From contig JQKK01000003.1 in assembly GCA_000746015.1 (NCBI GenBank), forward strand, positions 62,001 through 126,000: 64,000 bases of DNA. The letters run 5' to 3'. This document shows, piece after piece, positions 34,981 through 37,097 of this stretch. The notes under the pieces were generated by a model. The model worked only from the letters and a program-made list of their open reading frames with translations. It searched no databases and was not told where the DNA came from. Origin of the DNA: Lachnospiraceae bacterium MA2020. GTDB taxonomy: Bacteria > Bacillota > Clostridia > Lachnospirales > Lachnospiraceae. Positions within the stretch are counted from its first letter, which is position 1; every line of letters starts with the position of its first letter. Position numbers and translations under genes: made by a program.

Positions 34981-35247
34981 ATCAAAACCTGGGAGGTTCG
35001 ACAGCTTCTGTTTTATTTGAACCTACATTTACTTTAAATGGGATTCCGATAGTCACGAAGTCCGATGTCAGGCCACCGCCGCCTAGCGGACACGAGTTTA
35101 CTCGCGTAGGAGTGGAAGACAGACGATAAGTTGAGGTAACCCACCTAGCAGCGGCTAGGAGTCATTTGGCAGGGGAACGGCTTACCCGGGAATTAAAATT
35201 AAAAAATTATGGAAGCAGCTTTGATAGTTGCTTCCATTTTTTGTTTC
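34981..35247 (+). ncRNA. Structured noncoding RNA of unassigned family
   Basis: About 265 bases between a strong promoter and a strong terminator. Possible stems: closing CCTGGG (34988-34993) with CCCGGG (35185-35190); AGGTTC (34994-34999) with GAACCT (35019-35024); CCAC (35073-35076) with GTGG (35112-35115) enclosing CCTA..TAGG and CGAG (35093-35096) with CTCG (35101-35104), loop TTTA; and CCTAG (35144-35148) with CTAGG (35155-35159). TCCGAT is repeated at 35045 and 35061. It is more GC-rich than its flanks and contains no ORF with a ribosome site. GGTTCGACAG near the 5' end recalls tmRNA, but there is no tRNA-like 3' end or tag frame. The raiA motif is a possible identity I cannot test; 6S and RNase P do not fit. 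Confidence 0.75.
35209..35247. terminator. Bidirectional terminator of the ncRNA and the XRE regulator
   Basis: An 11-bp stem ATGGAAGCAGC (35209-35219) with GTTGCTTCCAT (35227-35237), one G-T, followed on the plus strand by TTTTTGTTTC. On the minus strand the stem is followed by AATTTTTTAATTTT, so it also ends the regulator gene. Confidence 0.9.
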
Positions 35248-35258
35248 ATATATTTTTG

Positions 35259-36740
35259 TTATTTGTATTCGCCACTCTTAAGTTTTTCGATACAATCATC
35301 TATAAGCGCTATAGTTTCATCCTGCGAGCACACTATGTTTGAGCAGAGAAATGGACTATTTGCTGCATATTCCAAAAAGTCAATAAATGCGTCCATTAAT
35401 GTTGGCTCATTCATAAAGAAAAATCGGTAGCTGTCATGTTTATTATCGAAAACGCTGATACCTACATGGTTATCGTGAGTAATCTGAATAGCTATGTTGG
35501 TGGTAATATGGAAGAAATTATCATTGAATACTCTTACCATGTACCCCTCACGTTCTACATGCTCTTTGAGCATTTTAAGTGAGTTTGTTCTGTATTTAGC
35601 AGGTATAATTTTTACATACTTTTCCGGGAAATTCAATATCTTTCCGTTTTTTGAAAACTCAATAAGACCTTCTCTGGAAAAGAAACTAATGTGCGCGTCA
35701 ATCCTTTTGCCATTGTCAGATGAGGATGAGACTATATGATCTATAGTATTCTTAACGTCCTTATTGCCTGGAATGATCTTCAGAGCTGTCTCAAGATTAA
35801 ACATAGAAAACAGCCAGGGCTGTTTACCCATTTTACAGAATCCTGAGCGCTTGATGACAGAAGGAGGGAAGTATTCTGCCAGATCTTTTAAATTATCTCC
35901 GGTCCTTACGAGCTGCTGTGCCTCTGAAACATTAAGGTTGAAATAGTCTCTGTACTCTTTGACAACATCAGGGATATTGATAAATACTGCTGCCTCGAAA
36001 TCGATTGCAAGATGAATGAGCAAGTCTCCCATAATGATGTAATAAGGATGGAGTATCTGAGACTCAGCAACTAAAGGATGCTGCACGTAAGTGTAGTATG
36101 CATGATAATCAATAAGATCAGTAAAAGCTAAAGGAAGGACATTTGAAAGTATCTGAAGATTAAAGTTGATCTCCTTTGGCTGTGCCGGGTTTTTAATAAA
36201 GTGCATCAAATGACGTATATGTAAAGTCTTTGATCCTTTTGATGACAGATGCTTAAAAAAGTCTGATATAAAATCACTTGTAAAAGGAGCGAAAACACAA
36301 ATATCATCATCTGGCTGATTAAGGCTCGCCAAAATAAGGCTGTGAGCAACTTCATATCTTCCTTTTAAGATAATATGTCCGGCGCGCAGATTGACATTTG
36401 TTCCGGTCTTTGGTGAAGCACCATTACTTTTATAAAGCTTTGGGCTTGAAAACTCGGGATGAAAAATACGTTTGACCATACTTAGCATGAACTGGCGGCG
36501 CTCATACAGCTGTTCTCCGGATGAGATGATCTCGTAAGTGCGCCAAAGATCTTTTGTCTGGTCCGGTGTAAGCTTAAGGAACGGAATGAGTTTTTCTATA
36601 TTCTGCTGCTCTGGGAGCCTGTTTGCATTTATCATACGGACGATGGATGTCCTGTTAACTCCGGAAAGCATTGCAAGCTTATTTACGGAGTATCCACTTT
36701 CTTCAATATATTGATTTAGTTTATCACCTAATAATGAAAT
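35259..36740 (-). CDS. XRE-type DNA-binding protein, likely ATT start
   Basis: A helix-turn-helix of XRE type (residues about 1-60: GDKLNQYIEESGYSVNKLAM, then LSGVNRTSIVRMINANRLP) followed by about 430 residues of unrecognised, non-repetitive alpha/beta sequence without membrane segments. The first ATG (36671) would cut off the first helices of the HTH. The open frame continues upstream to AAAGGAGG (36754-36747), six bases before an ATT at 36740; no ATG, GTG or TTG lies in frame there, so ATT is the best start (493 residues). The promoter upstream contains the 18-bp repeat, suggesting autorepression. Large one-HTH regulators of this kind are common in Lachnospiraceae; a ligand or peptide-sensing C-terminal part is a guess. 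Confidence 0.72.
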   Translation of the reverse strand: MSLLGDKLNQYIEESGYSVNKLAMLSGVNRTSIVRMINANRLPEQQNIEKLIPFLKLTPDQTKDLWRTYEIISSGEQLYERRQFMLSMVKRIFHPEFSSPKLYKSNGASPKTGTNVNLRAGHIILKGRYEVAHSLILASLNQPDDDICVFAPFTSDFISDFFKHLSSKGSKTLHIRHLMHFIKNPAQPKEINFNLQILSNVLPLAFTDLIDYHAYYTYVQHPLVAESQILHPYYIIMGDLLIHLAIDFEAAVFINIPDVVKEYRDYFNLNVSEAQQLVRTGDNLKDLAEYFPPSVIKRSGFCKMGKQPWLFSMFNLETALKIIPGNKDVKNTIDHIVSSSSDNGKRIDAHISFFSREGLIEFSKNGKILNFPEKYVKIIPAKYRTNSLKMLKEHVEREGYMVRVFNDNFFHITTNIAIQITHDNHVGISVFDNKHDSYRFFFMNEPTLMDAFIDFLEYAANSPFLCSNIVCSQDETIALIDDCIEKLKSGEYK

Positions 36741-36796
36741 GACGGGCCTCCTTTCAGATAGCCTAAGTTATAGGTATAAAGTTATCTTATGTTCAC

Positions 36797-36825
36797 ATTT
36801 TAGTCTATGCCAAGCACAATTGCAA
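36797..36825 (-). promoter_or_regulatory. Promoter of the XRE regulator
   Basis: On the minus strand TTGCAA (36825-36820), 17 bases, TAAAAT (36802-36797). The -35 lies inside the first 18-bp repeat. Confidence 0.65.
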
Positions 36826-36830
36826 GCACA
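36813..36830. repeat. 18-bp operator-like repeat, copy 1
   Basis: AGCACAATTGCAAGCACA, itself two AGCACA hexamers 12 bases apart around ATTGCA. Identical to copy 2 at 36868-36885, 55 bases start to start. It covers the -35 of the regulator promoter. Likely binding site of the XRE protein, by position. Confidence 0.7.
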
Positions 36831-36867
36831 GATTAAGGTATATTTTGTGCATGTTTTAAAAGGTGTT

Positions 36868-36885
36868 AGCACAATTGCAAGCACA
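36868..36885. repeat. 18-bp operator-like repeat, copy 2
   Basis: Exact second copy of AGCACAATTGCAAGCACA. It ends two bases before the -35 (36888) of the plus-strand promoter, a place suited to either activation or repression. A half-site in the other orientation, TGTGC, lies between the copies at 36846-36850. Confidence 0.7.
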
Positions 36886-36887
36886 TA

Positions 36888-36916
36888 TTGAAATAAGTAT
36901 TTCAACTTGGTATTAT
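36888..36916 (+). promoter_or_regulatory. Promoter of the small RNA at 36923
   Basis: TTGAAA at 36888-36893, 17 bases, TATTAT at 36911-36916. Divergent from the XRE promoter. Confidence 0.75.
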
Positions 36917-36922
36917 ACTATC

Positions 36923-37082
36923 TGTAATTAGGGTGTAGTTTTAATCATACATTCAGTCGCAAGCGAAGGGGAAAGCTGGCGACAGGGGAGATTCAATTAC
37001 ACTGAGGGGTGTATATTGGACGTTATATATATGGAAAAGAGGCTTTTAAGGATAGGGGAAATCCTTAAACAGCCTCTTTTTC
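36923..37082 (+). ncRNA. Small RNA divergent from the XRE regulator
   Basis: About 160 bases from the predicted start to the terminator. TGTAATT (36923-36929) pairs with AATTACA (36995-37001). Inside is a hairpin GTCGC-A-AGC / GCT-G-GCGAC (36956-36983) with a G-rich loop. Four GGGG tracts occur at 36968, 36985, 37006 and 37055; the first and last are in hairpin loops. No convincing ORF: a TTG-started frame near 37018 would run through the terminator. It resembles a regulatory RNA with exposed G-rich loops; I do not recognise a family. Control by the XRE protein is inferred from the repeats. Confidence 0.65.
37039..37082. terminator. Terminator of the small RNA, also facing the minus-strand gene
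   Basis: GAGGCT (37039-37044) with AGCCTC (37071-37076) and TTTAAGGAT (37045-37053) with ATCCTTAAA (37061-37069), followed by TTTTT. On the minus strand the stem ends in TTTTCC, so it can also end the gene at 37098. Confidence 0.9.
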
Positions 37083-37097
37083 ATTTAAAAAATTGCA

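Follow-up and report, generated by a model that had tools for sequence, protein, structure and literature searches.

A conserved module of an XRE-type regulator, a repeated operator and a divergent small RNA in Lachnospiraceae bacterium MA2020

Layout and conservation of the module

The organisation of a regulatory module of Lachnospiraceae bacterium MA2020 was analysed in a 64,000-nt stretch of contig JQKK01000003.1, hereafter the window. A regulator gene (35259-36740, minus strand; 493 aa) and a small RNA of about 160 nt (about 36923-37082, plus strand, the ends being estimated from promoter and terminator) are divergent, and two identical 18-bp sites of the form AGCACA-N6-AGCACA lie between them. 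Operator 1 (36813-36830, plus strand) is located over the regulator promoter (36797-36825, minus strand), whose -35 box TTGCAA (36825-36820) falls inside the site and is followed by a 17-bp spacer and the -10 box TAAAAT (36802-36797); autorepression is predicted for this site. Operator 2 (36868-36885, plus strand) ends 2 bp before the -35 box TTGAAA (36888-36893) of the RNA promoter (36888-36916, plus strand), which continues with 17 bp and the -10 box TATTAT (36911-36916); activation is predicted here. The result is in accordance with a first-pass annotation made from the sequence alone, which had placed two identical sites 55 bp apart, one over the -35 of the regulator and one abutting that of the RNA; both sites are exact, and the 55 bp are counted from start to start. 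The window contained three matches to the site at up to three mismatches (two exact, one with three mismatches), while 100 shuffles of the window gave a mean of 0.11 and never three. The only exact copies in the whole assembly are the two at the module.

The conservation of the module was then examined in 48 genomes of the genus. The regulator is encoded in 12 of them with 34-100% identity, in G319 split over two contigs, and the RNA is divergent to it in all 12. The 19-nt core of the RNA, CACTGAGGGGTGTATATTG (37000-37018), is identical in these 12 carriers and occurs exactly in none of the 36 other genomes, 15 of which have at least 90% completeness and at most 5% contamination. No match to the core was obtained at one or two mismatches, and at exactly three mismatches it was matched in 5 of the 36 non-carriers and at extra places in carriers. 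A search of one genome per species over 84,980 species gave 11 stretches with the exact core, 10 of them Lachnospiraceae with regulator and operator; the remaining one, in a Rickettsiella assembly, is taken as chance because regulator and operator are both missing there. The first-pass annotation had named, as one outcome that would speak against it, RNA and repeats that are not conserved with the gene. Both were found to be kept with the gene as one unit in 12/12 carriers, and the first observation is real, with stronger support than a reading of the sequence alone could give.

The promoter geometry is equally constant. In all 12 loci RGCACA-N6-AGCACA ends 2 bp before TTGAAA, TTGAAT or TTGCAA, followed by a readable spacing of 17 bp and a -10 box. 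On the regulator side, too, a -35-like box lies under an operator in 12/12 loci; this box is TTGCAA in eight and has three or four of six consensus matches in all. The -10 box of the regulator at 17 bp has at least 5/6 matches in 10 of the 12, and 4/6 in L043 and L044, which hold a 5/6 box at 14 bp. Paired operators, as suggested earlier, did not turn out to be the rule: a single operator serves both promoters in nine genomes, and it is duplicated with split tasks only in the window, G323 and G326. Both copies in the window are identical, and the RNA-side copies of G323 and G326 have lost the TTGCAA centre, which suggests that the protein may read the half-sites, the centre being retained only as a promoter box. 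The comparison of the loci shows that the unit, its operator, the promoter geometry and the RNA structure are conserved.

Further occurrences of AGCACA-N6-AGCACA were observed inside the regulator coding region of three related genomes (G299:C2:24478, G327:C11:96971 and G344:C5:36622) and, in L040, directly downstream of the regulator and close to a hairpin-like stretch (G337:C111:3148-3165). A 6S RNA gene (34983-35196, plus strand; RF00013, 47.7 bits against 46.4) is convergent with the regulator in the window. L036, L037 and L046 have a 6S-like word close to the regulator, yet no 6S RNA was scored above threshold there. A Clostridiales-1 RNA (RF01699) lies close to the module at L043:3968-4093.

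The small RNA

The fold of the RNA region (36928-37087) was better than that of shuffled sequences (z -7.8, 0/200). Three hairpins were assigned on the plus strand. Hairpin 1 (36956-36983) has a variable stem, with two-sided changes in 6 of 8 pairs, and a loop, GAAGGGGAA, which is invariant in the seven long-form RNAs. Hairpin 2 (36988-37024) holds the 19-nt core. The terminator hairpin (37033-37082) carries AGGGGA in its loop in the long forms, and its 3' arm ends in a T run. A terminator in the window RNA was not detected by a simple terminator scan; the fold shows a 21-bp hairpin, the 3' arm of which finishes in a T run. For the seven long-form rows, to which the covariation claim is confined, two-sided changes were present in 16 of 40 pairs over the three hairpins, and the covariation score was 0.454 compared to 0.242 for shuffled and 0.074-0.148 for slid alignments. 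An alignment of all 12 rows gives a poor fold, since the long forms do not align well with the short ones. The five short forms (113-125 nt) have no recognisable hairpin 1 and the RNA of L046 has no G-rich terminator loop; hairpin 2 is therefore the constant element.

Above the gathering score only tRNA and 6S RNA were matched by Rfam in the window, leaving the small RNA unmatched, and the eight Rfam matches in the module region at E up to 5 were every one far below that score. A covariance model of the RNA (R1) was searched against 299 genomes of the family under strict filters that lose weak matches; it recovered the window copy with E 1.5e-34. Five further matches were weak, with E of 3.6e-4 to 0.09 in the genome concerned, and are taken as chance because their loci have neither GAGGGGTG nor the operator. 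No pairing signal was obtained between the RNA and the mRNA leader of its own regulator at the 12 loci (z -1.2 to +1.0).

The regulator and its distant family

The start codon of the regulator was reconsidered. The start given by a mechanical list of open reading frames, ATG 36671, would cost the DNA-binding domain its first helices. The frame runs upstream to ATT 36740, which is preceded by an AGGAGG box and gives a complete domain, and the gene most likely starts there on this reading of the frame. An ATG stands at the equivalent position in the 11 other loci of the genus with a readable start. ATT, the apparent start in the window, is a rare start codon. P0003 (74% identical) likewise has isoleucine at the start position, and P0002 (95% identical) is annotated 23 residues short.

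The protein is composed of an XRE-type helix-turn-helix (HTH; about residues 1-75), a linker, a predicted phospholipase-D-like (PLD-like) domain and a C-terminal region. HTH_3 matched the single sequence with E 4.9e-4 and 20.5 bits, slightly below the Pfam cut-off of 23; the family profile matched C.BclI with E 3.2e-6, and the DNA-binding part of the model resembles SinR and C proteins in structure comparison, so that the protein shows the Cro/XRE-type HTH by which XRE and HTH_3 proteins are recognised. The Pfam scan of the regulator (P0001, up to E 1) gave HTH families only. For the remaining part, on a scale of 430 residues, a non-catalytic PLD-like fold as in archaeal TrmB is predicted from the model, at about residues 116-280 with additional strands near 400-444. 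This part had been put forward as a possible sensor region, and the predicted fold supports that view in being one found elsewhere in effector domains. The motif HxKx4D is characteristic of phospholipase D enzymes; it was present in none of 28 aligned family proteins. TPR repeats had no Pfam match in the regulator, and the list of fold matches was made up mostly of PLD-like chains.

Of 299 sampled genomes of the same family, 51 encode homologs of the regulator; the 51 include its own genome and members of other genera. A search for related loci with the regulator protein in genome contigs gave no match, though relatives occur in that set, and at E 1e-10 a profile of the distant family searched against proteins retrieved nothing besides the same 11 close relatives. 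The upstream regions of 26 distant homologs (19-26% identical) were examined for repeats. Exact 6-mer repeats at period 12 were present in 10 of the 26, against a shuffle mean of 1.28 and a maximum of 5 in 200 sets, and other periods from 9 to 16 gave 0-4. This test uses no letters of the operator motif, and the period-12 repeat of L008 is unrelated to the operator in sequence. Among 11 distant loci chosen for having a visible site, 10 showed a -10-like box (at least 4/6) at 16 or 17 bp past a 2-bp gap and a 6-bp box. A composite promoter test was positive in 13 of 26 upstreams (shuffle mean 0.93, maximum 4), with a CA constraint picked after the sites were seen. The distant sites were first spotted by eye, which leaves the later tests partly dependent on that inspection.

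The weight-matrix test on distant homologs, with flanking DNA as control, was weakly positive (23-bp matrix score of at least 10 in 5/26 upstreams against 1/46 control flanks). The exact extended operator occurs seven times in the 299 genomes, six times within 2 kb of a homolog, and at up to one mismatch 61 times, against 8 in a reversed control. Two extended operators stand near one homolog each in G296 (C1:398828 and 402776) and G028 (C82:63445 and 65182), one of the four with a mismatch, which suggests from site positions that small local regulons may exist there. An exact copy was also observed at G254:C35:39188, in a genome without a detected homolog.

The genes beyond the sites of distant homologs are mostly protein-coding. 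LytTR response regulator genes (L016, L024) and a receiver-domain protein below the Pfam cut-off (L034) are divergent to the homolog, with the repeat before the -35. A trypsin-like protein (L035), a choline-binding-repeat protein (L007) and a TPR protein (L023) are among the other products encoded beyond such sites. No such open frame was present in L014, and only a doubtful one in L011.

Mode of control and relation to known systems

The geometry described above is most likely explained by a regulator which switches on the small RNA via the repeated DNA site. A probability of about two in three is given to an activator, possibly ligand-responsive, that turns on one small RNA and represses itself. 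The regulator would be a one-component switch with the small RNA as its main output. The two AGCACA half-sites, which lie on one DNA strand at a distance of 12 bp, would be recognised by its XRE domain. From a position 2 bp upstream of the RNA -35 the regulator could contact RNA polymerase and activate the RNA, and bound over its own -35 it would shut off its own promoter. The non-catalytic PLD-like domain, whose fold resembles a portion of the TrmB effector domain, may detect a small ligand and so set the switch, which is the least certain step of the proposal. The RNA may act in trans by offering its G-rich hairpin to a partner.

Several results weigh against this explanation. The pair types of the seven long-form RNAs were not above shuffles (33 against 31.2; 137/500). 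No pairing-target signal was found in the 12 carrier genomes for CACCCCTCA, the 9-mer complementary to the core loop: of 80 matches 12 are the RNA itself, and 68 non-self matches stand against 52 for the reversed control. The regulator model has weak stretches and a mean predicted local distance difference test score of 75; whole-chain template modelling scores against TrmBL2 are low (0.21 and 0.37), and the fold match with TrmB spans chain residues 110-242 only. Most sugar contacts of TrmB are placed at 305-326 in the portion of the published account consulted (PMC4158304), which this match misses, so ligand binding is not implied by the fold. The half-site pair by itself is unspecific, as RGCACA-N6-RGCACA is present in 38 of the 48 genomes of the genus, regulator or not. 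With low cut-offs the window-derived matrix separates distant homologs poorly from control flanks (18-bp score of at least 6 in 6/26 upstreams against 11/46 control flanks), and a detected homolog lies within 5 kb of only nine of the 61 sites at up to one mismatch, leaving 52 with none so near.

The RNA promoter of the window is moreover near consensus and possibly independent of an activator. Together with the operator common to both promoters in nine of 12 loci, this would fit a regulator that represses both divergent promoters until a ligand releases it, the RNA not being activated. A repressor site commonly overlaps the core promoter, and its position tends to vary. Here the operator lies entirely upstream of the RNA -35 with a constant 2-bp gap in 12/12, and the same gap recurs in distant members whose -35 boxes are poor, among them TTTCGG, TGGTAA and GAATAC; because the site is outside the core promoter and its gap is fixed, such co-repression is disfavoured and considered unlikely. 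That regulator and repeats are unrelated neighbours is hardly probable at all: the half-site motif alone recurs by chance and most one-mismatch extended sites are far from any detected homolog, but the strict co-occurrence and geometry in 12 carriers and the period-12 repeats beside distant homologs speak against it.

Other roles of the transcript were also considered. Repeated GGA motifs are the hallmark of CsrB-type decoy RNA, which sequesters CsrA. CsrA is encoded in all seven carrier genomes tested of the 12, and each of the seven long-form RNAs has 4-6 GGA and 3-4 GGGG runs. The invariant core hairpin sequence, however, has no GGA, the count falls to 1-2 in L041-L044 and to 0 in L046 (range 0-6 per RNA), and A-N-GGA is missing in 5/12; the repeated GGA of CsrB-type RNA is thus not a feature of the family, and a decoy role is weak and quite improbable. 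A leader or peptide-coding mRNA in place of a trans-acting RNA is very improbable. The string GAGGGGTG followed by TTG does look like a ribosome site with a start, but the encoded peptides are 2 to 40 codons long (the scan ended at 40) with no shared sequence across the 12 loci, the 3' hairpin is present in 12/12, the next gene of the window is convergent, and the flanking sequence, judged by eye, differs by lineage.

The activator reading was compared with known systems. The first-pass annotation knew of no such described system, a claim that does not stand for the layout, as SgrR-SgrS, the sugar-stress switch of E. coli, has a similar layout with unrelated parts. SgrR and SgrS are divergent, SgrR represses itself, and the protein consists of an SgrR N-terminal and a solute-binding domain; SgrS pairs with transporter mRNAs in dependence on Hfq. 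Neither SgrR domain was found by Pfam in the window regulator, which has the XRE HTH and PLD-like domain instead, and the window RNA has no conserved SgrT-like peptide and no Rfam match at the gathering score. The likeness lies in a terminator-ended small RNA beside its regulator; in enteric bacteria, as far as the consulted sections of one account go (PMC4021124), the regulator adjoins and activates a small RNA that has an intrinsic terminator, the intergenic region is conserved and the response is to a metabolic signal. TrmB and TrmBL2 of archaea share an HTH followed by a non-catalytic PLD-like fold, and TrmB binds maltose and sucrose according to the sections consulted (PMC4158304). The winged helix PF01978 (Pfam, up to E 1) and the effector domain PF11495 were not found in the regulator by sequence; its HTH is of the XRE type, and the similarity of fold is to part of the effector domain only, stopping short of the subdomain with most sugar contacts. 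In OxyR-OxyS and GcvA-GcvB a transcription factor activates a nearby small RNA, and AimR likewise activates the nearby AimX in the part of its description that was consulted. These regulators are of LysR or TPR type, the TPR repeats of AimR-type (RRNPP) proteins binding peptide, and their RNAs are unrelated to the window RNA. A limited literature search in one open-licence collection did not find a published account of the module. The novelty resides in the parts, regulator and RNA, the layout being already described in SgrR-SgrS.

As a tentative view, possible rather than probable, the module may be a Gram-positive counterpart of SgrR-SgrS, in which an XRE-headed metabolite sensor with a TrmB-like PLD domain turns on a small RNA that acts through its invariant G-rich hairpin, in an undescribed pairing or protein-binding mode; its origin would lie in an activator family using a fixed promoter code of direct repeats, in which an RNA took the place of a protein-coding target. 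The analysis adds to the rumen Lachnospiraceae a structured small RNA absent from Rfam, and suggests that bacteria join an XRE head to PLD-like domains, which are known from archaeal sugar regulators. It also yields a rule for operator and promoter that can be tested (12-bp direct repeat, 2-bp gap, -35, about 17 bp, -10), covering a large regulator family in which Pfam names nothing but the HTH. Since distant members adjoin LytTR response-regulator and secreted-protein genes, this rule may assign targets to unknown regulators.
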